Origin: a virus
Virus record (IMG/VR): IMGVR_UViG_3300037157_000022
Location: 1 to 42,256 of that record
Reading direction: 5' to 3' (one strand)
Length of the DNA stretch: 42,256 nucleotides
Part shown: in pieces, positions 4,298-38,453 of the stretch
How positions within the stretch are numbered: position 1 is the first letter of the stretch
Layout of the letters: each line of letters begins with the position of its first letter
Position numbers and translations under genes: made by a program
Notes under the pieces: model-generated
Database searches by the model: none
The model's input: the letters and a program-made list of their open reading frames with translations, nothing else
Told to the model about the DNA's origin: nothing

Positions 4298-4370
4298 GGG
4301 CTGCTAGCTCAAATGGGAGAGCATCTGACTTTTAATCAGAAAGATGTCGGTCCGACTCCGACGCGGCCCA
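4298..4370 (+). tRNA. tRNA-Lys (anticodon TTT)
   Basis: The full cloverleaf can be drawn. Acceptor GGGCTGC 4298-4304 pairs with GCGGCCC 4363-4369 (one G-U). The D-stem GCTC/GAGC is at 4307-4310 and 4319-4322. The anticodon stem TCTGA/TCAGA encloses the loop CTTTTAA, with anticodon TTT at 4331-4333. A five-base variable loop is followed by the T-stem GTCGG/CCGAC with loop TCCGACT. The discriminator is A4370. No CCA is encoded, so it must be added after transcription. The tRNA reads AAA and AAG lysine codons. It lies inside the small-gene cassette between repeat copies A and B. Confidence 0.95.
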
Positions 4371-18724: not shown

Positions 18725-19321
18725 ATGACTGCGCCGCACGAGATCGCTGCGGTCCGGATTGGCCGGCGCGCACTCATCGGGAAGACCAGCGAGTACGCCA
18801 CGGTCCGGAGCCGGCGACGCGCGTTCATCCGCGCCTATCTCGCTGACCCCACGCGGAACGCCACCGCGGCGGCGCTCGCGGCCGGCTACTCCAAGCGGAG
18901 CGCCAAGTCCACCGCGTCGGAGTTGCTCAAGGACCCGCGCATCCAGGCGGCGATCGAGGCGGCCACCGCGCCCATGCGCCACCGCTACCGGCTCACGCAG
19001 AAACGGGTGCTCGCGGAGCTGGCCACCAACGTGTTCAGCGATCTCGCGGACTACCGGGTGCGCGGCGGCCGTGTGATGCTCGCACCGGGCGCCCAGCCGC
19101 GGGCCACGCGCGCGGTGGCCGGCGTCAAGCGCAAGACCCGCTACGTGAAGAACGCCAGCGGCGGCTACGACCGGGAGCACGAGATCGAGTTCCGGCTGTG
19201 GGATAAGACCAAGGCGCTCGGGCTCGCGATGAAGCACCTCGGGCTACTCGTCGATCGCGTTGAGATCAAGGACATGACGCCGCAGTCCTGGGTGATCGGC
19301 GGACACCGGCTCGACTTCTAG
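18725..19321 (+). CDS. terS: Terminase small subunit
   Basis: 198 residues from the ATG at 18725. Residues 28-75 hold the HTH of the Terminase_2 family: RRRAFIRAYLADPTRNATAA, then ALAAGYSKRSAKSTASELLK. This domain recognises the packaging site. The C-terminal part (residues 90-198) is the oligomerisation and large-subunit contact region, ending in a strand-rich tail. The large subunit follows after one small gene. Confidence 0.85.
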   Translation: MTAPHEIAAVRIGRRALIGKTSEYATVRSRRRAFIRAYLADPTRNATAAALAAGYSKRSAKSTASELLKDPRIQAAIEAATAPMRHRYRLTQKRVLAELATNVFSDLADYRVRGGRVMLAPGAQPRATRAVAGVKRKTRYVKNASGGYDREHEIEFRLWDKTKALGLAMKHLGLLVDRVEIKDMTPQSWVIGGHRLDF

Positions 19322-19596: not shown

Positions 19597-21113
19597 GTGA
19601 CACCCGGACACCGGCCCGGGTCCGCGCCGGCCGCGAGAACGTGAAGTCCGCGCAGGCCGCGCGTGCCGCGAAACAGGCTGAGGCCGATGAGCGCGCGGCG
19701 ATCCCGGCGACGCTCACCACCACCACGATTCAGGACGTGCTCCTCGAAGCCGTGTTCGCCGGGCCGTACCGGTTCCTGGCGATGGGTGGTGGGATCCGCG
19801 GTTCCAAAACCTGGGCGACGCTCATCACCCTCATCACGCTCTGCCGGATCTACCCGCGCTCGCGGTGGGCGATCGTGCGCATGGATCTCCCGACCCTCAA
19901 GCGCAACACGATCCCGTCATTCAACAAGCTCCGCGAGACGTGCAGCGGGTTCGTCGGTGAGATCAATCGCACCGAATGGATCGCGCCCTGCGCCAACGGA
20001 TCGGAGATCGTCTTCTTCCCGGAATCGTTGCAGGACGACCCGGAGCTCGACCGCTGGCGCGGACTCGAGGTGAACGGCTTCCTGCTCGAGGAGGCGAACG
20101 AGCTCTCGGAGCGCACCTTCCACAAAGCGATCGAGCGCTCGGGCGCGTGGATCGTACCCAAGGGCAAGGATGGCTCGCCCCCGGTACAGCCGGCGTCCCG
20201 GATCCTCTGTACCTTCAACCCGTGCGATAACTGGCCCCGGACGCTGTTCTACGAGCCGTATGAGGCTGGCACACTCAAGCCGCCGTACTACTACCTCCCG
20301 GCAACGCATCTCGATAACCCCTACGTCACGGACGACCAGCGCGAGAATTGGGAGGAGCTGCCACCGGCCGAGAAAGCGCGGTTCGTGGAGGGCGATTGGG
20401 GCCGGATCATCAACCCCAAACAGCTCATCCAGTACGATTGGATCCGCGCCGCGACGGAGGTGGACCGGGTGGGCGCGGACGGCCGCGAGGCCGTGGATGT
20501 CGCCCGGTACGGCGACGACGACACCTGTTTCGCGCGCATCAAGGGCAACTGCCTGGTCGAGCTCACCACGTATCACGACATGGGGATCACCGAGATCTCG
20601 ACGCTGGCCGGGTCGCGCCTCATCCTCAACGGCATCAAGCCGGCGCAGTACCGCGTCGATTCGGTTGGGGTGGGCGCGGGGGTGGCCGACAACATGGTGG
20701 CCGCGGGCCACAAGATCGTCGAGTTCGTGGCCGGCGCGTCGGCCGTGGACCGGCGGCTCGACGAGACTCCACGAGAGAAAGGCAAACGCGCGCCCGAGTC
20801 GGTGTTATCCTTCGCTAACCTCCGTAGTCAAGCCTGGTGGGAGGCGAAGGAAAAGCTCAGATTAGGGCAGTTCAAGATCCCGGCACAGATCATCGAGAAG
20901 GTGCCGGACTTGGTGAAGCAACTCCTCGCACCCGAATACGATTATCTCCGCGATCGCGTGATCATCGTGGACAGCAAGGAGAAGATGAAGGACAAGCTCG
21001 GGAAGTCGCCGAATGAGGCCGATGCCCTCATCATGGCGATGTTCGATCTCCCGAAGTCGCTGACGCGGGTGTTCCAGCCCGGCGAATACGCGAAGTCGTA
21101 TGTGAAGTGGTAG
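19593..21113 (+). CDS. terL: Terminase large subunit
   Basis: 506 residues from the GTG at 19593. The ATPase domain has a Walker A variant, GGGIRGSKT, at residues 65-73 and Walker B FLLEEANE near 163-170. The RNase H-like nuclease domain has D302 in AVDVARYGDDDT, D356 in YRVDSVGVG and D477 in NEADALIM, the three metal-binding acidic residues. It drives DNA into the prohead by ATP hydrolysis and cuts concatemers. The linker, residues 270-292, is the segment with the inverted copy inside the cold-shock gene. Confidence 0.95.
   Translation: MSDTRTPARVRAGRENVKSAQAARAAKQAEADERAAIPATLTTTTIQDVLLEAVFAGPYRFLAMGGGIRGSKTWATLITLITLCRIYPRSRWAIVRMDLPTLKRNTIPSFNKLRETCSGFVGEINRTEWIAPCANGSEIVFFPESLQDDPELDRWRGLEVNGFLLEEANELSERTFHKAIERSGAWIVPKGKDGSPPVQPASRILCTFNPCDNWPRTLFYEPYEAGTLKPPYYYLPATHLDNPYVTDDQRENWEELPPAEKARFVEGDWGRIINPKQLIQYDWIRAATEVDRVGADGREAVDVARYGDDDTCFARIKGNCLVELTTYHDMGITEISTLAGSRLILNGIKPAQYRVDSVGVGAGVADNMVAAGHKIVEFVAGASAVDRRLDETPREKGKRAPESVLSFANLRSQAWWEAKEKLRLGQFKIPAQIIEKVPDLVKQLLAPEYDYLRDRVIIVDSKEKMKDKLGKSPNEADALIMAMFDLPKSLTRVFQPGEYAKSYVKW
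20400..20468 (+). repeat. Terminase segment that matches the cold-shock gene tail in inverse
   Basis: This is the + strand partner of 18641-18709. It encodes residues 270-292 of the terminase, between its ATPase and nuclease domains. The two arms lie about 1.7 kb apart as an imperfect inverted repeat. Confidence 0.85.
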
Positions 21114-21248: not shown

Positions 21249-21389
21249 ATGCTGCCGTGGTGGTACCCCTGCGCGATGCACCAGCAGTCCCCGGGCGTCG
21301 CACTGCCATTCGAGCAATGGCTGTTCTACCACTGGCGCATCGTCCTCGGTGGCCCGCGTAGGCAGGCCCCAGCCCCCGCTGCCTCGTGA
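21249..21389 (+). CDS. 46-residue peptide ahead of the portal gene
   Basis: ATG at 21249, stop overlapping the portal GTG (GTGA). The sequence is aromatic-rich (MLPWWYPCAMHQQS, FEQWLFYHWRIVLGG) with a Pro/Ala tail. Small proteins in this position are common between terL and portal but vary. The 135 bases before it (21114-21248) hold no gene and are rich in C and A, like the other late leaders. Confidence 0.5.
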   Translation: MLPWWYPCAMHQQSPGVALPFEQWLFYHWRIVLGGPRRQAPAPAAS

Positions 21390-23131
21390 CCGGTCCCGCC
21401 CTCACGATCATCCCCGGCGGCAGTCTCGCGCAGGCCGCGAAAGCGCCCACCGCGGCGTTCCTGGCCACTACCAACCCGATCTACGACCAGCAGAACAAGC
21501 ACTGGAAGCGCGAAGAGGAACGGCTCTACGGCGGCGACGCCGTGCTCAAAGAGCTCGTCCGATTCGATTACGAGCTGGAGGACGGGCCGCACTACACGTC
21601 GCGCCTGTCCTACGCCACCTACATCAATCTCCCGAAGCTCCATAGCTCGCTCATCACCGGCCACGTCTCGAAGAAGCGGCCCAAACCCGGGTCGGGCCTG
21701 TCCTTCGGTGCGCTGGGCGATGTGCGGACGCGGGGGAAGATCAACACCACGCCGAGTCGGGCCGAGCTCCTCTACTACAACGTCGATGGGATCGGACAGG
21801 ACGCCTCCGAGTGGGCTGTGTGGTGGGATGGGGTGTTCGATCGCGCGGAGGCCACGGGCTTCCGCTGGGTGATGGTCGAAGTCCCACGCCGCGATACGCT
21901 CTTGACGTCCGAGATCACGATGGCCGACGAGCAGGCCGGCGCGCGCCCGTTCTTCGTGGAGTACTCGCCCCGGCAGGTCACCAACTGGTGGTATCACAAC
22001 GGCGAGCTGCAGTTCGCGGTGGTCCGGCCGGTGGTCGATGAGCCGTACGTGAACGAGGTCGGCAACCTGTACATGCCGCAGCTCAACCAGAAGGGCTACT
22101 ACCTCATGGTGCGGAAGGGGTGCGAGCTGCTCGGTCCCGAGTGGTCCGGCGGCGGCTGGTGGCTCTGGAATTCGGGGCTCGCCTTCCTCGACTCCGGCGA
22201 CTGGTCGAAGACGGGCGGCCGGATCCCGATGTTCCCGGTGTTCAGTGAGCCGGATCCGGGGACGCCAGACCATCCGCAACTCGCGCGGTCGCAGACGATG
22301 GAGCTCGGGCAGGCCGCGGTGGGGATCATGAACCTCATGTCGTCCCGCGACTTCGATGCGTTCGACGCAGGGAGCTCGAAGACATTCCTCCTGGGCGCCA
22401 ATCCCGACACGATGCAGGCCGTGAAGGAGCAGATCGGTAACAGCCAAGTGATCGCGGTGCCGTCGGTGCAGAACGAAGACGGCTCAGTCTCCGCGGTGAC
22501 GATCTACGACGGCAGCCAGGGCGCGGTGTCGGCCGACGTGTTCAAGACACTGATCGCCAGCAAGTTCGACGAGGCCAACCGGCTCATGGTCGAGCGGGCG
22601 ACGTCGGACAAAGCGTCGAGCGGCGCCAAGCAGGTCGCGTCGTTCGCGGAGGGCACGAGCCCGCTGCTCGTGCGGCGGGCCCGACTCCGCCAACAGGCCG
22701 AGACGACGGCCATCAACTTCTGCGAGCTGCGGTGGGGCGCGACGACGCAGCCCTCGGGTTACGCCGAATACCCGGACGACTACGAACTCGCGCCGCTGGT
22801 GGACGATATTGATGCCGAGCTCGATTCGTTGCGACGCTCGGGCGCGTCGTCGCCGACGCTCACGGTCGGGCTGGTTATGCAATCGCTGGACGAGCGCGGA
22901 CTGATCCCCGAGGGGACCGACCGCAAGGTGATCGAGAAGGAGCTGACGGAGTCGCTCACGAAAGCCGCCGCGAACGCGGACGCGCGGACACAGCTCCTCG
23001 CGCAGGGCGTGAACCCACTCACCACGCCGCCCAAACCCGGCAGCGCACCGCCCGCCGCAACGCTGCCACCGCTGCCGGCGAACACGCCGCCCGGCGGTGC
23101 GCCCGACCCGAAAGCGGCAAAGGCGGCGTAG
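21386..23131 (+). CDS. Portal protein
   Basis: 581 residues from the GTG at 21386. Length, position after terL and the fold pattern fit portal proteins of the DUF4055-like group: an early YATYINLPKLHSSLITGHVS segment, then WAVWWDGVFDRAEATGFRWV and the helical stem region with MELGQAAVGIMNLMSSRD. The last 60 residues are Pro/Ala-rich and disordered. Twelve copies form the ring through which DNA enters the capsid. The specific subgroup is from memory. Confidence 0.8.
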   Translation: MTGPALTIIPGGSLAQAAKAPTAAFLATTNPIYDQQNKHWKREEERLYGGDAVLKELVRFDYELEDGPHYTSRLSYATYINLPKLHSSLITGHVSKKRPKPGSGLSFGALGDVRTRGKINTTPSRAELLYYNVDGIGQDASEWAVWWDGVFDRAEATGFRWVMVEVPRRDTLLTSEITMADEQAGARPFFVEYSPRQVTNWWYHNGELQFAVVRPVVDEPYVNEVGNLYMPQLNQKGYYLMVRKGCELLGPEWSGGGWWLWNSGLAFLDSGDWSKTGGRIPMFPVFSEPDPGTPDHPQLARSQTMELGQAAVGIMNLMSSRDFDAFDAGSSKTFLLGANPDTMQAVKEQIGNSQVIAVPSVQNEDGSVSAVTIYDGSQGAVSADVFKTLIASKFDEANRLMVERATSDKASSGAKQVASFAEGTSPLLVRRARLRQQAETTAINFCELRWGATTQPSGYAEYPDDYELAPLVDDIDAELDSLRRSGASSPTLTVGLVMQSLDERGLIPEGTDRKVIEKELTESLTKAAANADARTQLLAQGVNPLTTPPKPGSAPPAATLPPLPANTPPGGAPDPKAAKAA

Positions 23132-23134
23132 CCC

Positions 23135-23488
23135 ATGCCCGGCCCCTACCTCGATCCGACCGACCCGGACCTCATCACGCTCTGGCTGGGCCGCGACTTC
23201 CAACTGTCGTACTCGATCGGTACGGATCTCACGGGTGCGACGCTCTACTCGAACCTCTGCGAGTACCTTGGCGGTCCCGCGATCGCGTCGTTCGTGGTCA
23301 CGATTCTGACCACCGGCAATCCGAGCACGTATACCCGCTCGCTCTCCACCACGGCGATGGCGACAGCCAAGATGTACGCGCGACAGTACGTGACCGACCA
23401 GGGCGTGTCGTTCTCCGGTGGCCCGGTGCAAGCGCTGACGGAGCCGGGCTGGGCGACGGTCAAGGGCGTCGCGACGCTGGTGCCGTGA
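23135..23488 (+). CDS. Hypothetical structural-region protein
   Basis: 117 residues from the ATG at 23135. It begins PGPYLDPTDPDLITLWLGRD and is beta-rich with Thr/Ser/Ala stretches. It may be an adaptor for the fibres encoded downstream. No family was recognised. Confidence 0.6.
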   Translation: MPGPYLDPTDPDLITLWLGRDFQLSYSIGTDLTGATLYSNLCEYLGGPAIASFVVTILTTGNPSTYTRSLSTTAMATAKMYARQYVTDQGVSFSGGPVQALTEPGWATVKGVATLVP

Positions 23489-23495
23489 GCAGCTG

Positions 23496-25115
23496 ATGGG
23501 CGACGTGGATGTCGATCTCATCGTGGTGCCACCGCCGGTCGTTGCGCTCGACCCGACCATCGGCATACCTGGCACTCCCGGCTCGCCCGGCACTGATGGC
23601 ACAGACGGTACCAATGGGACGAATGGAGCGCCCGGCTCGCAATGGTACCAGGGCTCGGGGGCGCCGAGCACGCTGCACAGCAACGGAGATCTCTACCTCA
23701 ACACCACGACCGAGGATCTATACCAACAGGCAGCCGGTGCGTGGGGCTCGCCGATCACGAACATCAAAGGTGCCACGGGCGGCACTGGCGCCACGGGGAG
23801 CGCGGGCGCAACAGGCCCCACGGGTGCCACCGGCGCGACAGGCAGCGCCGGAACGAATGGCGCCAATGGAACGAACGGCGCGACGTGGCGGGAGGGGAGC
23901 GGCGCCCCGAGCAATGCGCTGGGCGTAAACGGCGACTTCTATCTCGATGTCGTCGCGTTCAACGTCTATCAGCGCGCCTCGGGCACCTACTCGATCATCT
24001 GCAACATCGAAGGCGCGACGGGCGCGACCGGATCGGCAGGCAGTACAGGCGCCACTGGAAGCGCGGGAGCAACAGGAGCCACCGGCCCTACGGGGGCGAC
24101 TGGCGCAACAGGCGCCACTGGCCCGTCGCTCGATACCGTCACATCGATCTCGGACACGGATACCACGGTTGCGGCCAGTCCCGCCGTCGATCTCGACGTT
24201 GCGTATGCGACGCTGACAACGAAGCGGACGATCACGTTGCCCACCACGGTCAGCATCGGGCGGAAGATCCGGGCGATCGACCAGTCAGGGAATTGCAGCG
24301 CGTCGCTCTGCCTCGATATGCTGCCCGGTGGCACGGACACGTTGAACGGGGTGAATGAGCGGTGGACCGTGTTGCAGACCGCGTACGGCGCGGCGACCGC
24401 GTACCGCACCGCGGCCGGCGTCTGGGTGGTACCGGGCGCGGTCGCGGACCCGGTTAGCGGCGTCCCTGCGGACATTGCCACGTTCATCACGGCGCTTGGC
24501 GTCACGCCGCTGGCCTTCTGGGATGCGCGGTATGCGCTCACCAGCGCGAATTGGACGGATGCGCTCAATGGGTACGTCGCTGCGTATACCGGGGGATCTC
24601 CAACGATCTCCGGGTCAGGCGCGACCGCGCAGGCCGCGTTCACCGCTTCACAAATGGCGGGTATGGCGTCTGCGCTCGTCGCGGCCCCGGCGACCGGCAT
24701 CAGCATCCTCTACGTGGGTTCGCTGGCGGCCAACAGCTTCGGCCCCTACGCCACCTGGGCCGCACCCAGCACTGGGTATTGGGGGGCCGGGGCGAACACG
24801 AGCCTTCTGTGCGCGGCCACGTATGGGTCCATCTCGCAGGCCGCACTGTCGGCGGTCGCGGCCAGTACGACGGTGCGCGCGTGGGCCGTGTCGCTCTCGT
24901 GGGCTGGGGTGGGCGAGATCACTGTGGACGCCGGGGTCCAGGCCAGTAATAGCCCCTTGCTCATAGAGACACCAACCGGCGACGGCAAGCTCGTTGTGGC
25001 GGCCGGTCAAGCGGCTCAGAACATACAGGCCGTGATCTATCTGCCCGGACTCTACACGTCGGGGATGATGTCCACGTTCCTCTCGTGGGCCGGGACGTAC
25101 CACACGTATGTCTGA
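23496..25115 (+). CDS. Collagen-like fibre protein
   Basis: 539 residues. Residues 1-22 form a short N-terminal segment (VDVDLIVVPPPVVALDPTIG) shared with the gene at 25130. Gly-X-Y stretches at 23-47, 92-129 and 173-210 would form a collagen triple helix. Between them lie two copies of a small beta module (GSGAPS...NGD(L/F)YL). The C-terminal half is beta-rich and may be a trimerisation or lectin-like head. A trimeric fibre is likely. Its place between portal and MuF-like genes suggests it may sit on the head, not the tail. Confidence 0.8.
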   Translation: MGDVDVDLIVVPPPVVALDPTIGIPGTPGSPGTDGTDGTNGTNGAPGSQWYQGSGAPSTLHSNGDLYLNTTTEDLYQQAAGAWGSPITNIKGATGGTGATGSAGATGPTGATGATGSAGTNGANGTNGATWREGSGAPSNALGVNGDFYLDVVAFNVYQRASGTYSIICNIEGATGATGSAGSTGATGSAGATGATGPTGATGATGATGPSLDTVTSISDTDTTVAASPAVDLDVAYATLTTKRTITLPTTVSIGRKIRAIDQSGNCSASLCLDMLPGGTDTLNGVNERWTVLQTAYGAATAYRTAAGVWVVPGAVADPVSGVPADIATFITALGVTPLAFWDARYALTSANWTDALNGYVAAYTGGSPTISGSGATAQAAFTASQMAGMASALVAAPATGISILYVGSLAANSFGPYATWAAPSTGYWGAGANTSLLCAATYGSISQAALSAVAASTTVRAWAVSLSWAGVGEITVDAGVQASNSPLLIETPTGDGKLVVAAGQAAQNIQAVIYLPGLYTSGMMSTFLSWAGTYHTYV

Positions 25116-25129
25116 GCCGCCATCCTAAC

Positions 25130-25525
25130 ATGGCCCCGTCGCCCGTCTACCTCACGCCGATCGCACCGCCCGTGGTCGTGCTCACTCCAGGCGGCGCGGG
25201 GCCGGTGGATCTCGATGTCATCCCGCCGACCAGTGTGGCGCTCGATCCCACGCTCGGCACGCTGGGCAATCAAGGCATCCAAGGTGTGCCAGGCCCACCC
25301 GGCAGCGGCGGTGATCTCAATAGCGTCTTCACGCAGTCGATCGCGAGCGCGACGTGGATCATCCCCGTACCCGCGCCGTTTATCAGCGTCGGCAAAGTGC
25401 CGTCGGTCACGGTCGTCGATTCGGCCGGCACGGTGGTCCTTGGCTCCGTCGCGCACAACGCGTCGCTCAACCAACTCACGATTTCCTTTTCGGCGCCGTT
25501 TTCGGGTTCTGCATTTTTGAACTGA
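25130..25525 (+). CDS. Short collagen-like fibre protein
   Basis: 131 residues from the ATG at 25130. The N-terminal segment PVDLDVIPPTSVALDPTLG matches that of the preceding fibre, followed by a short Gly-X-Y piece (NQGIQGVPGPPG). The rest is a beta-rich domain of about 70 residues. It may be a companion fibre using the same docking site. Confidence 0.7.
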   Translation: MAPSPVYLTPIAPPVVVLTPGGAGPVDLDVIPPTSVALDPTLGTLGNQGIQGVPGPPGSGGDLNSVFTQSIASATWIIPVPAPFISVGKVPSVTVVDSAGTVVLGSVAHNASLNQLTISFSAPFSGSAFLN

Positions 25526-25554
25526 TGCCCTCTCTCACACACTAGGACACTCCG

Positions 25555-27309
25555 ATGGCGATCCCAGTTCTCAATAACCTCGATCTCACACTGAACCAGC
25601 TCTTGAACGCGCTGGCGCAAGTGTTGGGCACCGATCCGGGCTCGCCGACGCAGGCGCAGTTCTGGTTCAACTCCACGTCGAACCGCAATAAGCACTACGA
25701 CGGCACGACGGTACAAACCGACGCGCAGCTCAGTGATTCGCTCGACAAGTTCGCCGCACCCGTCGCGAACGTCCCGTGGGGATCGCAGCGCATCACGACG
25801 CTCGCTGACCCGGTGAACGCGCAGGACGCAGCCACAAAGAATTACGTGGACTCCGCGATCATGGGGATCGACCCCCACGGCTCCGTCAAGTACATGACCG
25901 CCGCCGCGCTCCCGGCCTACACCTACGCCAATGGCACTGCAGGCGTCGGCGCGACGATCACCGCCAACGTGCACGCGGTGTGGACGATTGACGGCCAGTC
26001 GCTAACCGTGGGCGACCGGGTGCTGGTCACCCAGGGCGCGGCCGGCAGCGATAACGGCATTTACACCGTCACCACCGTTGGCACTGGCAGCGTCTTCACC
26101 GTCTTGACCCGCGCGACGGATTTCAACACCGCGACGCTCGACGTCCCCGGCTCGATTGTGCAGGGCGCGTTCGTGTTCGTGGAAACCGGAACTACGGAAG
26201 GCGCCACGGGCTGGATCGAGACGGGCGCTGGCCCGTTCACCGTGGGCACGACCGCCATCACCTGGACGCAACTCGGCGCGGCCACGTCCTACTCAGCGGG
26301 CAGCGGCATCACGTTCGCCGGGACGGTCATCTCGGCGCACGTCGATGGCGTCACGATCACGACCAACGGCAGTGGCCAGTTGATCGTGGATTCGTCCGCG
26401 ACGGCCAGCCAGACGCTGCTATCGGCCGGCACAACAGGCACGGCGCCCACGTGGGGCGCGCTCCCACTCGGGACCGCCGCCGCCGTATCCGGTCTGCTAC
26501 CGCCAGTGCGCGGTGGTACCGGCATCGACACGAGTGCGGCGGCCAACGGGAAGCTGCTGATCGGGAACGGCAGCGGGCTCTCGCTCGCACTCGTCACCGC
26601 TGGCCCGCAAATCGGCCTCCCGGTCGGCGCTGGCACGCTCGAAATCGACAACCTGACGCCGTTCAAGCCCAACGCCACGGTCGTCGCGACCACCAATGTC
26701 ACGATCTCCAATCCCGCCACAGCGGTCTTCGACGGTGTGACGGTCACGAGCGGCCAGCGGATGCTGCTGACCGGGCAGACCACGACATCGCAGAACGGCT
26801 TGTGGGTGTTCAACGGATCGTCAAGCGCGCTGACGCGGCCGACGGATTACGCGGCGGCCAGCACGACGATGGCGTTTGCCGATGTCATGGTGGAAATCGA
26901 CTCGGGCACCGTGGGCGCCGGCACCGCATGGCGTCTCACCACTACGGGCGCGATCACCGTGGACACTACGGCCACGGCGTGGACGCAATGGGTGGTCAAC
27001 GTCGGCGCGAATGGCGTCGTGGGCGTATTGCCGATCGCGAATGGTGGCACGGCCAGCACGTCGGCCTCGACCGCACGCGCGGCGCTCGGCGCGACGACCA
27101 AGTACGCGGTCAACGTGCCGAGCGGTTCCACGTCCGCCGTCATCACGCACAATCTCGGCACGACCGACGTCCACGTGCAGGTGTGGGAACTCACCGGGAG
27201 TCTCCGTCAGGTCAACGTCGAAGTGGATAACACGAGCCCGAACTCGGTGACGCTCGTGTTCGCGGTCGCGCCGACGTCAGGCCAGTACCGCTGCGTGGTG
27301 ATCGGCTAA
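25555..27309 (+). CDS. Phage fibre protein with repeated beta domain
   Basis: 584 residues. The first 105 residues match tail fibre N-termini: AQFWFNSTSNRNKHYDG, then RITTLADPVNAQDAATKNYV. A domain of about 110 residues (pattern: VGDRVLV, then NGIYTV, then LTRATD and WTQLG) occurs at nt 25926-26290 and again in diverged form at 26680-27005. The C-terminus has a NGGTAST turn motif and a beta head. Probably a receptor-binding or decorative fibre. Confidence 0.8.
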   Translation: MAIPVLNNLDLTLNQLLNALAQVLGTDPGSPTQAQFWFNSTSNRNKHYDGTTVQTDAQLSDSLDKFAAPVANVPWGSQRITTLADPVNAQDAATKNYVDSAIMGIDPHGSVKYMTAAALPAYTYANGTAGVGATITANVHAVWTIDGQSLTVGDRVLVTQGAAGSDNGIYTVTTVGTGSVFTVLTRATDFNTATLDVPGSIVQGAFVFVETGTTEGATGWIETGAGPFTVGTTAITWTQLGAATSYSAGSGITFAGTVISAHVDGVTITTNGSGQLIVDSSATASQTLLSAGTTGTAPTWGALPLGTAAAVSGLLPPVRGGTGIDTSAAANGKLLIGNGSGLSLALVTAGPQIGLPVGAGTLEIDNLTPFKPNATVVATTNVTISNPATAVFDGVTVTSGQRMLLTGQTTTSQNGLWVFNGSSSALTRPTDYAAASTTMAFADVMVEIDSGTVGAGTAWRLTTTGAITVDTTATAWTQWVVNVGANGVVGVLPIANGGTASTSASTARAALGATTKYAVNVPSGSTSAVITHNLGTTDVHVQVWELTGSLRQVNVEVDNTSPNSVTLVFAVAPTSGQYRCVVIG

Positions 27310-27312
27310 CTC

Positions 27313-28398
27313 ATGGCAATCGCGGCAGACTCCCCGAGCGAACAACTGACGCTCGGGGTCAGCATTGCGCAGGGCTCAACGCTCACCGCGGCGCAATGTA
27401 AAGGCACGTTCATCCAGGTCACCGGCAACACCGGGGGCGGCGTGCTGGCGCTCCCGGCGCTCGCGGCCAGTCTCGGGTGCGTGATCCAATACACCGGCAC
27501 CGGCACGCTCCAGATGCAGACGAACGGCGGCGCGGGCAATGTCGGGGGCGTCCTCGCCACGGGCGGTTGCCTCTGGCTCGAATGCGATGGCACGGTGTGG
27601 AACGTCATCGCGTTCGCGGCCGCCGCCCCCACCACACAAGCGGCAGGCGACAACTCGACCGCTCCGGCGACCGACGCCTTCGTGATGAACGCGAACCCCA
27701 TTGTGGCAACCGTGGTCGCGACCGCTGCCTTGAGCCCGGCGAACACCTATAGCGCCGGCGTCCTCACGGCCAGCGCCACCGGAACGCTCACTGTCGATGG
27801 ACATCTCACGGCGGTGGGCGACTACGTGCTGGTGACGGCGGAATCCGCCGGGGCGAACGACGGCCTGTACATCGTCACGACGGCCGGCGCATCCGGTGTG
27901 TCCTATGTCCTAAAGCGCGCCAACAATGCGACGACGGCCGCGCAACTCAACCTCGGACTCAGCGTTGCAGTCGGTAGTGTGGGGACAACCTACGGTGGCA
28001 CCGTCTGGACGATGCCACCGGGAGCATACACAGTCGGCACGACCACACTGACGTTCACACGGGCGAACTACGCGCACGTCATTACCACCCTCAGCGGGAC
28101 CGGCGCGAAGACCATCACCGCGCTCCTCGCCTCCGCCTCCGCTAGGCTCTACCGCGTCATGGCGAGTGCGGTCGGTAAAGGGACCGTCGCCGTCACGGTC
28201 ACGATTTCGTGGACCGATGAATTCGGGAACGCTGAAGCGTGGGCCTTTACGGCCAGCTTCACCTCGACCGGCCAGAGTCAATCGGAAGTTATCCTGATCC
28301 TGCCCACCGCCGCGACGGCGATCAACGCGACCGTCGCGGTCACTTCGGGCACGGCCGCCGACGTCGGCTGGCACTTCGCGCTTGAAGCCCTACCGTGA
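27313..28398 (+). CDS. Fibre-like protein sharing a domain with its neighbour
   Basis: 361 residues, beginning three bases after the previous stop. Residues 1-135 are a beta-rich Gly/Ala/Thr region. Nt 27733-28070 carry the third copy of the VGDYVLV...GLYIVTT...LKRAN domain found twice in the preceding gene. The C-terminal 100 residues (VITTLSGTGAKTITALLASA, then a beta sandwich) may be a carbohydrate-binding head. Confidence 0.7.
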   Translation: MAIAADSPSEQLTLGVSIAQGSTLTAAQCKGTFIQVTGNTGGGVLALPALAASLGCVIQYTGTGTLQMQTNGGAGNVGGVLATGGCLWLECDGTVWNVIAFAAAAPTTQAAGDNSTAPATDAFVMNANPIVATVVATAALSPANTYSAGVLTASATGTLTVDGHLTAVGDYVLVTAESAGANDGLYIVTTAGASGVSYVLKRANNATTAAQLNLGLSVAVGSVGTTYGGTVWTMPPGAYTVGTTTLTFTRANYAHVITTLSGTGAKTITALLASASARLYRVMASAVGKGTVAVTVTISWTDEFGNAEAWAFTASFTSTGQSQSEVILILPTAATAINATVAVTSGTAADVGWHFALEALP

Positions 28399-28468: not shown

Positions 28469-28669
28469 ATGCTCGACTACCTGCTCGTCTACGCCGCGGG
28501 CTGCATCACCGGCGGCATCGTGATTGCGCTCGTGTACCACAACAACCTCATCAAGGCCAACGCGCTCGTCGGGAAGGCCAATGTCGCGGCCACGCAAGTC
28601 GTGTCGGACGCCACCAAGGTGATCGCGGACACCAAAGCCGCCGCGGCCACCGTCACCAAAGTGGTGTGA
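28469..28669 (+). CDS. Small single-pass membrane protein
   Basis: 66 residues from the ATG at 28469. Residues 3-24 (DYLLVYAAGCITGGIVIALV) span the membrane. The rest is an Ala/Thr/Lys/Val helix, like a short coiled coil. The layout resembles small holin or spanin-type proteins, but the length is short for a spanin. It overlaps the next gene by GTGA. Confidence 0.6.
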   Translation: MLDYLLVYAAGCITGGIVIALVYHNNLIKANALVGKANVAATQVVSDATKVIADTKAAAATVTKVV

Positions 28670-30366: not shown

Positions 30367-31200
30367 ATGGCCGCCGATGTCAAAACCCTGCTCGCACCCG
30401 TCCTCGCCGAAATGAAGGCGCGGATCGACGCCGCACCCGACGACGAGGCGAAGAAGACCGCCCGCGCCGAGTTCCTGGACGACGTCAAAGACGCAGCCCC
30501 CGACGTGTTCAATGCGATCCACACCACGGCGTTCAACGCCGGCAAGGGCGAGGCGAAGAAAGCGAAAGACAAGGCCGACGAGAAACTCAAGAAGGCCGAG
30601 GCTGAGCGCGACGAGGCCCGCGAGCAGCTCGAGGCCGCGAAAGCGGACAAGCCGGACGTCGCCGCGATCGAAGCCAAGCACAGCGCCAAGGCCGAGAAGT
30701 TGAAGCACGAACTCGACGCCGAGCGCGCCGACCGCGCGAAGGAACACCGCGACCGCGCAATGAAGGACGCCCGCGCGGATGTCGAAGCCGCACTGATCGC
30801 CCAGGGCTACCGACCCCGCGCCGCGAAATCCGAAGTGCTGCGACTCGTGGACGAGGGCAAGATCCGCCTCGCGGACGACGGCAGCGTCGTCGAGTACATG
30901 CAGCTCGCCGACAGCGATGCGGCCTACCCACCGCCGCGCACCGGCGCCAAGCCCCACGACGGGCTCGTCAAAGATCTCCGTGCCAAAGCCGACCCACTCG
31001 ACTTGACCAGCAATGTCGATCACGGCGCGGGCGCGCGACCCGGCCAGGGCATCGTCCGGCCCGGCGTCGGGACCGCGGGACAGCCGGGAGTGGGCGCACG
31101 TGTCACGCTCAAAGACGAGAACGGCGAGGAGCGCATCCTCGATCTCTCGCCCGAACTGCTGGCCGCCAAACGCGGGCAGTTGCACGGCGCAAGTGTCTGA
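30367..31200 (+). CDS. Capsid scaffold-like protein
   Basis: 277 residues. Residues 55-140 are an unbroken Lys/Glu/Ala coiled coil. The C-terminal part is Gly/Pro-rich, ending in a short helix (ERILDLSPELLAAKRGQLHG) that could bind the capsid protein. Position before the decoration and capsid genes fits a scaffold that guides prohead assembly and is later lost. Confidence 0.7.
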   Translation: MAADVKTLLAPVLAEMKARIDAAPDDEAKKTARAEFLDDVKDAAPDVFNAIHTTAFNAGKGEAKKAKDKADEKLKKAEAERDEAREQLEAAKADKPDVAAIEAKHSAKAEKLKHELDAERADRAKEHRDRAMKDARADVEAALIAQGYRPRAAKSEVLRLVDEGKIRLADDGSVVEYMQLADSDAAYPPPRTGAKPHDGLVKDLRAKADPLDLTSNVDHGAGARPGQGIVRPGVGTAGQPGVGARVTLKDENGEERILDLSPELLAAKRGQLHGASV

Positions 31201-31811: not shown

Positions 31812-32891
31812 ATGCCGCTCAATACGGGCGAATCCACACTTCAAGACCTGATCGCGGCAAAGAATCTCTCTTTCGCCAAGTTCGGGATCGACAACATCGA
31901 ACGCATCCTGGCCTACGACCAGGCCGCGTGGAACCTGATGGTCTCGGAGCTCATGACCGAGCTCTGTGAGATCTCGACCGATCAGCAGCGGATCTACGGC
32001 GCCTCGACTGATGGCGTCCTCACCGAAGTGGACGAACTCGGGCGCGCCACTACGCAGAAGCCGGCGCAAGGCTCGCAGGTCGCCTTCCCGCTCCGGCACT
32101 TCCAGGGCAATCTCGGGTGGACACGGGAGTGGTGGAAGAACCACACCCCGGCCGACTTGGCGCTCGTCGTCATGGCGGTACAGAAAGCTCACCTCCGGAA
32201 GATCTATGGCGCGGTCGGCCAGGCGATCTTCGCGGCCTCGGACTACACGTTCGCCGACTACACCAAGCTCAATATTTCCTTCAGCATCAAGCGGTTCGTC
32301 AACGCGGACGGCTCCGCGATCCCCGATGGCCCGCACGGTGAGGTGTTCAACCCGAACACCCACACGCATTACACGGCGCTCAACGGCCTGACGGCCGCGG
32401 CGGTGAACGCCCTCGGCGCCAATGTGCTGGAGCACAAGCTCTCGGCCAACGTCAAGATTGCGTTCAACGCGAACGACATCCAGACGGTGCAAGGGCTGAC
32501 CGGATTCCTCGGACTCGTGGATCCCCGCATCACGCTGGAGTACGGTACCTCGCAGGTCCCGACCCAGCGGCTGGACATCACGCAGTTGAATGATCGCTTG
32601 GTCGGCATCATGTCGCCCTATGCGATCTGGGTGAAGCCGTGGGTACCGCAAGGCTACGCCTTCGCGTACGACGCACAGTCGGCCGAGAAGCCGATGGTCA
32701 TGCGGATCGACCCGGGCACCGGCGGCCCGGACCTCCAGACGGTGCAGAAGATCGACGCCAACCCGCTCCACATGGAGTACATGGAATCGTACTTCGGGCT
32801 GGGCGCCTACTGCCGCACCGCGGGCGCTGCGCTGTTCTTCGCCACCGGCGGCGGCACGACCTGGGTCGACGCGACCATCACCGGCTACTAA
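31812..32891 (+). CDS. Major capsid protein
   Basis: 359 residues from the ATG at 31812. Pattern and place fit HK97-fold capsid proteins without a protease domain: an N-terminal helix (LAAKNLSFAKFGIDNIER type), a long central spine helix region and a C-terminal P-domain with DANPLHMEYMESYFGLGAY. The 110 bases before it (31702-31811) are C/A-rich and gene-free. Hairpins flank the gene on both sides, a layout that can set high, separate expression. Confidence 0.8.
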   Translation: MPLNTGESTLQDLIAAKNLSFAKFGIDNIERILAYDQAAWNLMVSELMTELCEISTDQQRIYGASTDGVLTEVDELGRATTQKPAQGSQVAFPLRHFQGNLGWTREWWKNHTPADLALVVMAVQKAHLRKIYGAVGQAIFAASDYTFADYTKLNISFSIKRFVNADGSAIPDGPHGEVFNPNTHTHYTALNGLTAAAVNALGANVLEHKLSANVKIAFNANDIQTVQGLTGFLGLVDPRITLEYGTSQVPTQRLDITQLNDRLVGIMSPYAIWVKPWVPQGYAFAYDAQSAEKPMVMRIDPGTGGPDLQTVQKIDANPLHMEYMESYFGLGAYCRTAGAALFFATGGGTTWVDATITGY

Positions 32892-33611: not shown

Positions 33612-34136
33612 ATGCCGCTGCCGGACATCGATCTCTGCAAATCGTACCTCCGGGTCGAGACCGACGTCGATGATCTCCTGATCGGTGAGGAGATCCGCGA
33701 GGCGATTGCGTTCATCGAGACCTATATCGGCCGCGCGATCTTGGATCCGAATAGCACCCGGGTGTTCGGTCCCGTGCGCACCGCGTACCCGACGGTGGGG
33801 AGTTTCCGTGTCGGCGATACCGCGCCCAACCAGAACGTGTACGCCGAGGGCCTGGATGAGTTAGGTCGCGAGACCAATGTGCCGCCCGCGACCGCGATCA
33901 CGGGGCCGCTCGCACTGAGCACACTGCCCGATTACGCCACGCGCTGGGAGCCGCTCCTGTCGCGGGCGATCCTCGATATGGTGGCGGAACTCCACTCGCA
34001 CCGCGACCCGATGGTCACCAACGAGTCCGCAGGCGGCGGCGTGTCCGTCACACGCGGCCGCTTGGTGCACGGGCTCCCGCCCCGCGTGCGGGCGATGCTC
34101 AAGCCCGTGATGGCGTTGTCGTCGATCCATCCATGA
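33612..34136 (+). CDS. Head-tail connector (gp6-like adaptor)
   Basis: 174 residues. Residues 5-40 (DIDLCKSYLRVETDVDDLLI, then GEEIREAIAFIETYIGR) match the start of the Phage_connect_1/HK97 gp6 family, whose ring sits below the portal. A further helix (WEPLLSRAILDMVAELHSHR) is at 115-135. The ATGA overlap leads into the glycosyltransferase gene. Confidence 0.75.
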   Translation: MPLPDIDLCKSYLRVETDVDDLLIGEEIREAIAFIETYIGRAILDPNSTRVFGPVRTAYPTVGSFRVGDTAPNQNVYAEGLDELGRETNVPPATAITGPLALSTLPDYATRWEPLLSRAILDMVAELHSHRDPMVTNESAGGGVSVTRGRLVHGLPPRVRAMLKPVMALSSIHP

Positions 34137-35443
34137 GCGACATCAATTGGTGGGGCCGACCGGGTCGGATCTTCCGCGCCGAGTTGCTCGCGCGGGATCC
34201 TGACTCGCCGCAGCCCTTCATCGGCCATGAGACGCCGGGCGCGCTCCGGATCCTCCAGGGCACGTCCTACGACCCGGGCTCCGCGGCGTACCGATTCCAC
34301 TCGGCGATCAACGAGACCACACCGCACGCGTCGATCTTCGCGCGGCTGGGCGATACGAACCCCTACACGCACTTCCGCCAGATGGATTGCGGGTCGCCCG
34401 AGTACGAAGCCGCAGGTGCCGAAGCCGATGTCATCCACTGCCACATGGACTACCTGGCCCGCGATCTTCTGTGGGGGCCGACGCGCGATGACGTCGTGCT
34501 GGTCCGCCATTACCACGGCTCAGCGGCCACGGTGGCACCGGACGGGTCGATCACCGTGAACGCGCCCGACGCGCTCGCCCGGCTCATGCAACTCGAGCAG
34601 GACCGCGCGCTCGGCGCCGTCATCTGCGGCGCGCGGCTCGACCACCTCCTGCTCGCCCCGGACGTGCACTGGCTCCCGATGACACAGCCCGTGCATCGCT
34701 ACGCGGCGCTCCGCGCGCAGCATGGCCCGCGGCATCCCTTCGGCACGCGCCGGCCGATGCGCGTCGGGCACTCGCCGACCGAGCCCAAGCTCAAAGGCAG
34801 CGCGGTACTGGAGCATGTGATCGGCGAGCTCCGCGCGGCCGGCGTGCCGATTGAGTTCGTGCGCATCGAGAAACTGCCGCACGGCGAGGCGCTGGCGGTG
34901 AAAGCGACGTGCGACGTCGTGTTCGATTCCTTCTTCCTCGGGCTCCAGGGCTCGGGGTTGGAAGCGGGCGCGATGGGGATCCCGGTGATTGCGGGGGATA
35001 CACGGGTCGCGCGGTTGCACGTGGAGCGATTCGGCGAGTGCCCCTACGTGTTCGCGGACGACGCCGAGGAGCTCGAGAACGCGCTGGTGGGGCTCATGGA
35101 CGCCGAGGCGTATGCGTTGGCCGCGGCGCGGATCCGTCGCTTCGTCTGGCGCCATCACAGCTACGAGGCCGTGGCGCGGAAGTACCTGACGATCCTGGCC
35201 GGTGCGGCGCCCGCATTGGCGCGCCGGATCGCGCTTGCGGGCGAGACCACGGCCGACCCGGCGCACTTCGATGAGGGGATCAACGAGCGGCCCCGCGAGT
35301 GGCCCGGCGTGGACCGTGCTCCTAAGCCGGCGGCGGATCCGCCGAAAAGTGCGTGGCCGCCGAGCATGACCGTGCCGGTGTTCGACAAGGACAAGCCGAA
35401 GCCCAAGCCGCCAGCGGACGACGCGTGGGGCGACGCCCGATGA
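34133..35443 (+). CDS. GT-B type glycosyltransferase inside the connector cassette
   Basis: 436 residues. A GT4-like pattern is visible: ADVIHCHMDY at residues 98-107, VGHSPTEPKLKGS at 211-223 at the start of the second Rossmann domain, and DVVFDSFFLGLQGSGLEAGA with MGIPVI at 261-286, where E277 is the likely nucleotide-sugar contact. A helical end (YEAVARKYLTILAG) is followed by a Pro/Lys-rich tail from residue 390. No membrane segment. ATGA overlaps on both sides couple it to connector genes, suggesting it modifies virion proteins during assembly; the acceptor is unknown. Confidence 0.8.
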   Translation: MSDINWWGRPGRIFRAELLARDPDSPQPFIGHETPGALRILQGTSYDPGSAAYRFHSAINETTPHASIFARLGDTNPYTHFRQMDCGSPEYEAAGAEADVIHCHMDYLARDLLWGPTRDDVVLVRHYHGSAATVAPDGSITVNAPDALARLMQLEQDRALGAVICGARLDHLLLAPDVHWLPMTQPVHRYAALRAQHGPRHPFGTRRPMRVGHSPTEPKLKGSAVLEHVIGELRAAGVPIEFVRIEKLPHGEALAVKATCDVVFDSFFLGLQGSGLEAGAMGIPVIAGDTRVARLHVERFGECPYVFADDAEELENALVGLMDAEAYALAAARIRRFVWRHHSYEAVARKYLTILAGAAPALARRIALAGETTADPAHFDEGINERPREWPGVDRAPKPAADPPKSAWPPSMTVPVFDKDKPKPKPPADDAWGDAR

Positions 35444-35583: not shown

Positions 35584-35942
35584 GCTACTCGCTCCGCAAC
35601 ATGCGCATCCGGGTCTACGCGTATACCGATGCCACCGCCAACGGGCTGGTGAGCAATACGTACGCGTTCCTTGGCGAGTATTGGGGCCGACTGGAGCCGC
35701 CCACCGGCGCGGAACTCAACGTCGCCGAGCAAGCGAACTACCAGATCGACGCGTCGGTGTTGCTCGACGGCGATCTCACGATCCCGCCGCAGGGGCTCAT
35801 CCGCGACTGTCGGACCGGCACGCTCTACAAGATCGAAGCGGTGTTGCCGCGCCGGCAGACGCGCGAACAGCAGGTGCACGGGAGTGCGACCACGGACGCG
35901 CAGCCGGCGTACGCCATCACCGGCGACCCGCCGAGCGACTGA
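35580..35942 (+). CDS. Head-closure (head-tail joining) protein
   Basis: 120 residues from an ATGA junction. The beta-barrel pattern (MRIRVYAYTDATANGLVSNT, then YWGRLEPPTGAELNVAEQAN and LIRDCRTGTLYKIEAVLPRR) fits the SPP1 gp16/Phage_H_T_join family that closes the capsid below the adaptor. Gene order agrees. Confidence 0.65.
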   Translation: MSYSLRNMRIRVYAYTDATANGLVSNTYAFLGEYWGRLEPPTGAELNVAEQANYQIDASVLLDGDLTIPPQGLIRDCRTGTLYKIEAVLPRRQTREQQVHGSATTDAQPAYAITGDPPSD

Positions 35943-35946
35943 GCCG

Positions 35947-36870
35947 ATGCCCTCGACCGCAACCCTCACCGCGACCGAATTCAACGGAGCTGGCGCCGTC
36001 ATTCCGGCGCCCACGCTCGCGTGGGCATCGGCGAACGCCGGCGTGTTCACGGTGCCATCGGGCGGCTCGGGCGGCCAGACGGCCGTGGTCACCGCGACCG
36101 GCGTGGGGAGTTCCACCGGGACCGCGACCGATCCGACCACGGCGGTGGTCGGTGGTTTCGTGGTGAACGTCAGCACGAGTCTCGGCTACGTCGTCTTGCC
36201 GGCCGGCGTCGGACTCACGGGGACGATTCCCGCGCTCGCCGGGGGTGGGAGCGGACTCCCGGTCCTGGGGTTCCGTATGCGGTTTCTCGTCGATTGCTTG
36301 CTCGGCACGCCGACCGCGGGCGGCCTCTTCTCGATCTACGACTCAGGCATCAATCTAAGTCTCGAAGTGACCTGCATCCTGGTCGGTAGCACGATCCGAT
36401 TCAACTTCACGGCCAACGATGGGGAAGCGAACGCGATCGCCGGCACCGTCGCGCAATCCGCACTGCCCGCGGCCGGAACCGGCGTCGTGCTGTATTCCGT
36501 CTATGAAGCGAGCGGCCAGTTGTTCGGCCTCGCGCTGCTCACGGACGCGGGCGGTGTGCTCTTCTCCTACGGCGTCAGTGCGGGTCCGGTCGGTGCGGGC
36601 AACACCCCAACCGGCAACACGACGCTGCTGATCGGTGGCTCGCATACCGGTCCCACCGGCGGCATGACGATCGACGGCGCGGAAATCCTGACGGCCGCTA
36701 TGGGCGCGCCGCAGACCCCGCCCGCCATCAATGGGAGCGATCCCGGCGACATCGGCCAGTGGGGCTTCGCCGGCGTGCTGACGCCTACAGTCGTCGGCGC
36801 TGCGCTGTCGGCCGTCGCGGGCGGCGGTCCGGGCTCGGTGACGTATCTGAGCGGGGGGCTCTGGTCCTGA
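35947..36870 (+). CDS. Big2-like plus lectin-like surface protein
   Basis: 307 residues from the ATG at 35947. Residues 1-75 resemble a bacterial Ig-like (Big2) domain: LTATEFNGAGAVIPAPTLAW, then ASANAGVFTVPSGGSGGQTA and VVTATGVGSSTGTA. Residues 85-290 form a beta-rich domain with the look of a LamG/concanavalin-type lectin. It may be a virion surface protein that binds cell sugars. It sits between head-closure and tail genes, an unusual site. Confidence 0.65.
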   Translation: MPSTATLTATEFNGAGAVIPAPTLAWASANAGVFTVPSGGSGGQTAVVTATGVGSSTGTATDPTTAVVGGFVVNVSTSLGYVVLPAGVGLTGTIPALAGGGSGLPVLGFRMRFLVDCLLGTPTAGGLFSIYDSGINLSLEVTCILVGSTIRFNFTANDGEANAIAGTVAQSALPAAGTGVVLYSVYEASGQLFGLALLTDAGGVLFSYGVSAGPVGAGNTPTGNTTLLIGGSHTGPTGGMTIDGAEILTAAMGAPQTPPAINGSDPGDIGQWGFAGVLTPTVVGAALSAVAGGGPGSVTYLSGGLWS

Positions 36871-37865: not shown

Positions 37866-38453
37866 ATGGCTACCCAGCCTCCGTTCAATGCCTACACGGC
37901 GAACATGCCCAATACGATCGGGCTGGATACTGCCGTGTTCTACATCGGGGCGACGCCGCTCGGCGTCACCGATGGGGGCCAGAAGTTCGACCCGAAGAAG
38001 ACGTTCCTCAACATCGCGTTTGACGGCAAACGCGCCCCGATCGCCGGCCTCGATCGCGTCACCAAATTCGAGTCGGAGATCACCGCCAAGTTCCTGCAGT
38101 GCGACATCTCCGCCTTCCTGCAGTACGAGGCGGGCTCGGTGTCGTCCTCTGGGTCCTCCGGCAACGTGATCATGATCCAGACCATGCAGTCGGCGTCGCA
38201 GCTCATCCCGGTGGGCTCGCTCCTCGCGAACCTGCGGTGCGCCTGGAAGCTCGGCAACACGAGCGGTTCGGGCTTCGTGTACAAGCAGGTCCGGTTCTAC
38301 CGCGCCCTGGTCACCAAGTACACGGCCGCGTGGAAGGACAACGGCTCGATGGAGATCGACGCGACGTTCGCGGCACGCCTGGACCTCACGGTCGCGGGCC
38401 TCACCACGGACAGCGCGCCGTACCTCATCGAAGACCTCTCCTCGTTCCCGTAA
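37866..38453 (+). CDS. Major tail (tube) protein
   Basis: 195 residues from the ATG at 37866, with AGGAC upstream. Pattern MPNTIGLDTAVFYIGATPLG, then GGQKFDPKKTFLNIAFDGKR, then a beta-sandwich region fits siphovirus tail tube proteins. Its place just before the frameshifted chaperone genes and tape measure gene is the standard one. Confidence 0.75.
   Translation: MATQPPFNAYTANMPNTIGLDTAVFYIGATPLGVTDGGQKFDPKKTFLNIAFDGKRAPIAGLDRVTKFESEITAKFLQCDISAFLQYEAGSVSSSGSSGNVIMIQTMQSASQLIPVGSLLANLRCAWKLGNTSGSGFVYKQVRFYRALVTKYTAAWKDNGSMEIDATFAARLDLTVAGLTTDSAPYLIEDLSSFP

Follow-up and report, generated by a model that had tools for sequence, protein, structure and literature searches.

Fibre genes between the portal and MuF-like genes of a phage contig: a recurrent adhesion-fibre module with changing neighbours

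Why should a run of fibre genes interrupt a phage head gene block, and does that position mean that the fibres are carried on the head? We asked this of a virus record of 42,256 bases, referred to as a whole as the window, in which the original prediction had placed fibre genes between the portal gene and a MuF-like gene and had raised the possibility of head fibres. The answer that we favour, with a probability of about 0.57, is that the cassette is a swappable set of receptor-binding fibres which is encoded within the head block and whose products, judged from sequence comparison, would sit on the tail or neck rather than on the capsid. The head block and its surroundings are laid out as follows.

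18725-19321: TerS gene
Ending at 21113: TerL gene
21386..23131, + strand: portal gene (phrog_145, E 4.5e-19), the left border of the exchange site
23135..23488, + strand: p1, 117 aa, no family match
23496..25115, + strand: p2, 539 aa, collagen-like fibre (PF01391, 1.7e-14)
25130..25525, + strand: p3, 131 aa (phrog_34633, 3.3e-13; phrog_30556, 9e-11), with its start, an ATG at 25130, taken from the ORF listing
25555..27309, + strand: p4, 584 aa, fibre (phrog_2647, 3e-73)
27313..28398, + strand: p5, 361 aa, fibre-like (phrog_2647, 4.7e-5)
28469..28669, + strand: small sixth gene, 66 aa, whose N-terminus looks from its sequence like a membrane segment
28666..29424, + strand: MuF-like gene (phrog_2662, 2.6e-28; phrog_2468, 1.1e-24; PF04233, 8.4e-6, just below Pfam's cut-off), the right border
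30367-31200: coiled-coil scaffold-like gene, called by its appearance
31812-32891: major capsid protein gene
33612-34136: adaptor gene
37866-38453: major tail protein gene

The five genes that had been predicted between portal and MuF are indeed there (23135-28398, all on the + strand), and to them we add the small sixth gene, which lies beyond 28398 and shares its last 4 bases with the start of the MuF gene. Intergenic gaps within p1-p5 are 3-29 bases, and their GC3 of 0.77-0.87 is near that of the neighbouring head genes. Because the cassette and the portal gene are closely packed on one strand, the cassette is probably expressed together with the head genes. A sister IMG/VR contig of 33,338 bases is 99.98% identical to the window over the parts fetched, and all five frames are present in it. 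Elsewhere in the window we noted a tRNA-Lys gene (TTT anticodon, 4298-4370) in the left part and an open frame of about 230-400 aa at approximately 35700-36870, which overlaps other frames, has no family match, and has a C-terminal part resembling a beta-rich exposed domain. A glycosyltransferase-like gene with weak PF13524/PF13692 matches follows the adaptor gene in the head-tail block (34133-35443); its product could modify virion proteins, for example the Thr-rich, collagen-like p2.

Four of the five cassette genes, p2 to p5, are fibre-like, as had been predicted, while p1 carries no fibre signature. The two collagen-like genes among them are p2, with three long GXY stretches (9, 13 and 13 triplets; 53.8 bits against Pfam Collagen), and p3, with one short stretch of 7 triplets; in 2000 shuffles the longest run of p2, and likewise that of p3, was never reached. 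Judged by these long repeats, p2 is a collagen-like phage fibre. It begins with an N-terminus that appears by eye to be rich in beta-strands, continues with the three GXY blocks, with short domains between them, and ends in a C-terminal part of about 330 aa for which we found no relatives except in the sister contig. Its N-terminus resembles that of p3 (49% identical over 43 aa, a stretch that is partly collagen-like). In p3 an N-terminal anchor-like segment and the GXY triplets precede a conserved C-terminal domain; the protein matches R5C gp39, RcMrWorf gp10, Mvi-JY20 and Sunfish gp37, and is similar to small proteins of Dinoroseobacter, Rhodobacter, Microcystis and Curtobacterium phages; a profile search with p3 among solved structures found none. 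p4 consists of a conserved N-terminus, a repeat domain present twice, and a conserved C-terminal domain, and its match to the phrog_2647 fibre family spans the repeat and C-terminal domains. It aligned with 29 IMG/VR fibres at 34-49% identity (alignment A5). p5 has the repeat domain in common with p4 (37% identity over 131 aa). IMG/VR searches with the window portal, the major capsid protein, p4 and the C-terminal part of p2 returned the near-identical sister contig only, the window portal had no tblastn match among phage records, and the genome collection yielded one relative only. In an alignment of nine (A1) the sequences proved too diverse to scan with.

Gene order in related phages was compared, as the original prediction had proposed, and p3 and p4 turned out to be one instance of a conserved pair of adjacent genes: the first encodes a protein of 92-143 aa with a short conserved C-terminal domain, and the second, directly after it, a fibre. 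The pair occurs in the window, R5C, R26L, RcMrWorf, Mvi-JY20, GMA4, Yvonnetastic, Sunfish and Phrappuccino. By sequence comparison, this pair appears to be the core of the module, to which p2 (collagen-like) and p5 (fibre-like) are added in the window phage. When IMG/VR was scanned with the p3 relatives, 211 places were found, of which we fetched the best 80. These contigs include R5C itself and several apparent near-duplicates, and therefore cannot be counted as independent. Gene order in them was derived from ORF calling and iterated profiles, and in some contigs p3 is hidden by a longer antisense ORF. The order TerL, LtfC-like gene, p3 (unmarked in some), fibre, portal was found in 61 of these best 80 of 211; a further 5 start after TerL, and 8 stop before any portal was found. 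The siting of fibre genes in the head module is therefore borne out and recurs in relatives. In a group exemplified by two contigs (L023, L088) the order continues through portal and MuF to the major capsid protein gene, with homologues of p3 and p4 adjoining within the head block as in the window; here, in contrast to the window, the module stands before the portal, portal and MuF are adjacent, a clear LtfC-like gene is present, and the portal is apparently of another family. Portal and MuF were adjacent in 48/48 IMG/VR contigs in which both were marked, in line with the earlier claim that they normally are; the R5C lineage departs from it.

That lineage provides the closest counterpart of the window. 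In the Dinoroseobacter phages vB_DshS-R5C and R26L (Nanhaivirus) the portal falls in the same phrog (22% identity between the R5C and window portals), MuF lies downstream, and the pair sits between the two. R5C gp38-gp41 and their R26L equivalents are, in order, a protein of 106 aa, the p3 homologue, a fibre whose C-terminus is of the p4 type, and one more long protein. The collagen-like p2 is absent from both phages, the gap additionally contains a ribonucleotide reductase gene and one other gene, and p1 shows no detectable likeness to R5C gp38. The passages that we found in the R5C paper make no mention of a virion proteome.

Among R5C-type phages the content of the portal-MuF gap changes. 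Their portals are found at seven IMG/VR loci, R5C itself among them. Two of these (L102, L103), with portals 72% and MuF proteins 68% identical to those of R5C, have the ribonucleotide reductase gene alone between portal and MuF and no fibre gene. Two others (L106, L107) encode in the gap, besides the ribonucleotide reductase, a 302 aa and a 731 aa protein, both unrelated, and another (L104) has several other genes there; apart from the reductase, the gap proteins of these three gave no family match. Thus relatives of R5C with portals 70-72% identical carry either unrelated genes in the gap or no fibre gene, and the gap is an exchange site whose content changes among R5C-type portal relatives. 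Since gap content varies among such close portal relatives, the cassette would be accessory and dispensable for head building itself. The ribonucleotide reductase gene between portal and MuF (L102 6170-8077, L106 15359-17284, L011 14614-16545) is in itself an example of a metabolic gene inside a head block.

We propose that the cassette is an accessory and exchangeable adhesion-fibre apparatus, and that it lies where it does because this part of the head gene block tolerates fibre genes being inserted and exchanged. A working model for its assembly comes from T5-like phage DT57C, where the dodecameric LtfC collar at the tail tip accepts beta-strands that the fibre LtfA donates with its N-terminus (PMC10713586). 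This small beta-sandwich adaptor with a strand-donating fibre end is pertinent because most relatives of the module have an LtfC/BppU-type beta-sandwich gene upstream of the pair, an arrangement that is usual and not universal; those of GMA4 and Yvonnetastic are LtfC-like by Pfam (PF23926), and the IMG/VR ones have one profile in common with those of Mvi-JY20 and DC31. As the upstream genes of relatives are LtfC-like and LtfC takes fibre strands in DT57C, an adaptor plus a fibre suggests itself as the general plan of the module; for the window, by extension, p2 and p3 may use their similar N-termini as anchors, perhaps on a ring formed by p1, in the manner of LtfA on LtfC. The collagen and repeat domains would then form trimeric stalks with surface-binding tips. 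p1 occupies the slot and has the size of the adaptor gene. The agreement goes no further than slot and length, and the reading of p1 as an LtfC-like protein found no support: similarity to the LtfC profile was not detectable (E 0.18, hhalign probability 0.1), and Pfam/PHROG-type profile searches gave no family match. The single-sequence AlphaFold model of p1 had a pLDDT of 42. The likeness to LtfC thus lies in the upstream genes of relatives and not in p1 of the window, which counts against the reading that we favour.

On the main alternative, the proteins would be head fibres or decoration proteins like SPP1 gp12 or phi29 gp8.5, attached to the capsid surface or its vertices, and through them the phage would be tethered to cells or mucus. 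We regard this as possible, if on balance unlikely. It is suggested by the position of the genes within the head block beside portal and MuF, and by the recurrence of head-block placement in unrelated portal lineages. However, the same pair is also found in tail and neck neighbourhoods. The fibre set follows tail-like genes in L065 and L071, the p3 gene of L035 is among tail genes, and in Yvonnetastic the pair comes after minor tail and lysis genes; in Sunfish it follows the head-tail adaptor and in Phrappuccino it precedes the sheath gene, with further placements in RcMrWorf, Mvi-JY20 and GMA4. Gene position is therefore uninformative on where the proteins are located, and it does not bear out the step from head-module genes to head fibres that the original prediction raised as a possibility, even though the genes are where it said. 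Because the contig breaks off in the tape measure region, dedicated tail-tip fibres may be encoded further downstream, which would leave the fibres of the cassette for the head.

Precedents for head fibres match the cassette in part. SPP1 gp12, a small protein encoded in the head block, can be compared by description with p2, a multi-domain fibre of 539 aa that is likewise collagen-like. SPP1 gp12 binds capsid hexamers (review PMC7602432). The phi29 head fibre, again compared by description, is alpha-helical and in this unlike the cassette.

Some names attached to the p4 family and to a solved relative also point to the head. Both phrog_2647 and phrog_2824 are classed as head, and the PDB chain 9nx3, homologous to p4 residues 366-584, was deposited as 'Capsid decoration protein'. 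For P-SS2 ORF074, a p4 relative called 'capsid decoration protein', the similarity listed is to the lambda-type tail collar/fibre protein gpH; its authors grouped it with tail fibre homologues, and its gene lies in a large tail-fibre cluster, with the capsid cluster elsewhere (PMC2784084). Mass spectrometry of virions detected the protein, on average through 2 peptides (PMC2784084). The 'head decoration' name of the p4 family appears to trace to this tail-collar/gpH similarity. When we traced the name through phrog_2647 and the RefSeq genes of L005, L006 and L007 we found no localisation behind it, nor did we find one for any phage with the gene order of the cassette. By sequence, p4 is a strong member of the family to which ORF074 belongs, and 'head decoration' there is a label. 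In 9nx3 the chain corresponds to the C-terminal part of a Bxz1-type protein of 1151 aa, and the gene of the Bxz1-type gp232 (L018) has glycosyltransferase, minor tail and lysis genes as neighbours, which argues against the capsid. Another PDB relative, 9efk_AE, corresponds to the p4 repeat domain and is part of the LME-1 portal-tail complex (orf22, 18 chains). No paper was found for 9nx3, including the basis of its location, or for 9efk. Remaining PDB relatives of the family mostly bear tail names (tail fibre gp9, tailspike depolymerases), partly through short motifs. As a pointer to the tail this kinship would be indirect, since these domains occur in many fibres. A model of p4 (pLDDT 60) gave no PDB fold match at E <= 0.001; its weak matches were to tailspikes, lectins and unrelated enzymes, and we used them only to name entry 9efk. 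Against a viral structure library the model matched mostly uncharacterised or tail-fibre-named proteins, with 2 named 'capsid decoration protein' in the first 50.

As a special case of our tail-or-neck reading, the fibres might be neck or collar whiskers at the head-tail junction, with genes that travel with portal and adaptor. The Sunfish pair fits such a scheme, as does Phrappuccino, where the p3-type domain is the C-terminus of gp69 (L006 10999-11925), encoded shortly before the sheath gene and just before the fibre gene. The N-terminal part of gp69 (phrog_2806), however, has no assigned function, and the positions of the pair elsewhere differ, so that we consider whiskers improbable. Least probable by far is that the cassette is decayed or inactive cargo without a virion function: L102 and L103 do lack a fibre gene at the site, but five open frames with coding-like GC3 and tight packing are kept in the sister contig, and a p4 relative is present in P-SS2 virions (PMC2784084).

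Taken together, the arrangement is real and recurrent, and belongs to a known kind, the phage adhesion-fibre module; the head-fibre hypothesis is weakly supported and not the one we favour. A stronger combined proposal, that the gap is a dedicated fibre-exchange site and that it encodes an adhesin set, collagen-like fibres included, which sits on the head or portal vertex as a second host-binding device besides tail-tip fibres, seems to us doubtful. If the proteins were on the head after all, the idea of a second adhesion device could be tested directly in R5C. What the comparison brings out is that many uncultured phages carry a small, conserved fibre module within the head gene block, where tools that look for receptor-binding proteins downstream of the tape measure gene would overlook it. 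It also calls for caution with a widely copied 'head decoration' label, and it identifies one site at which otherwise similar phages swap genes for proteins that are probably exposed.
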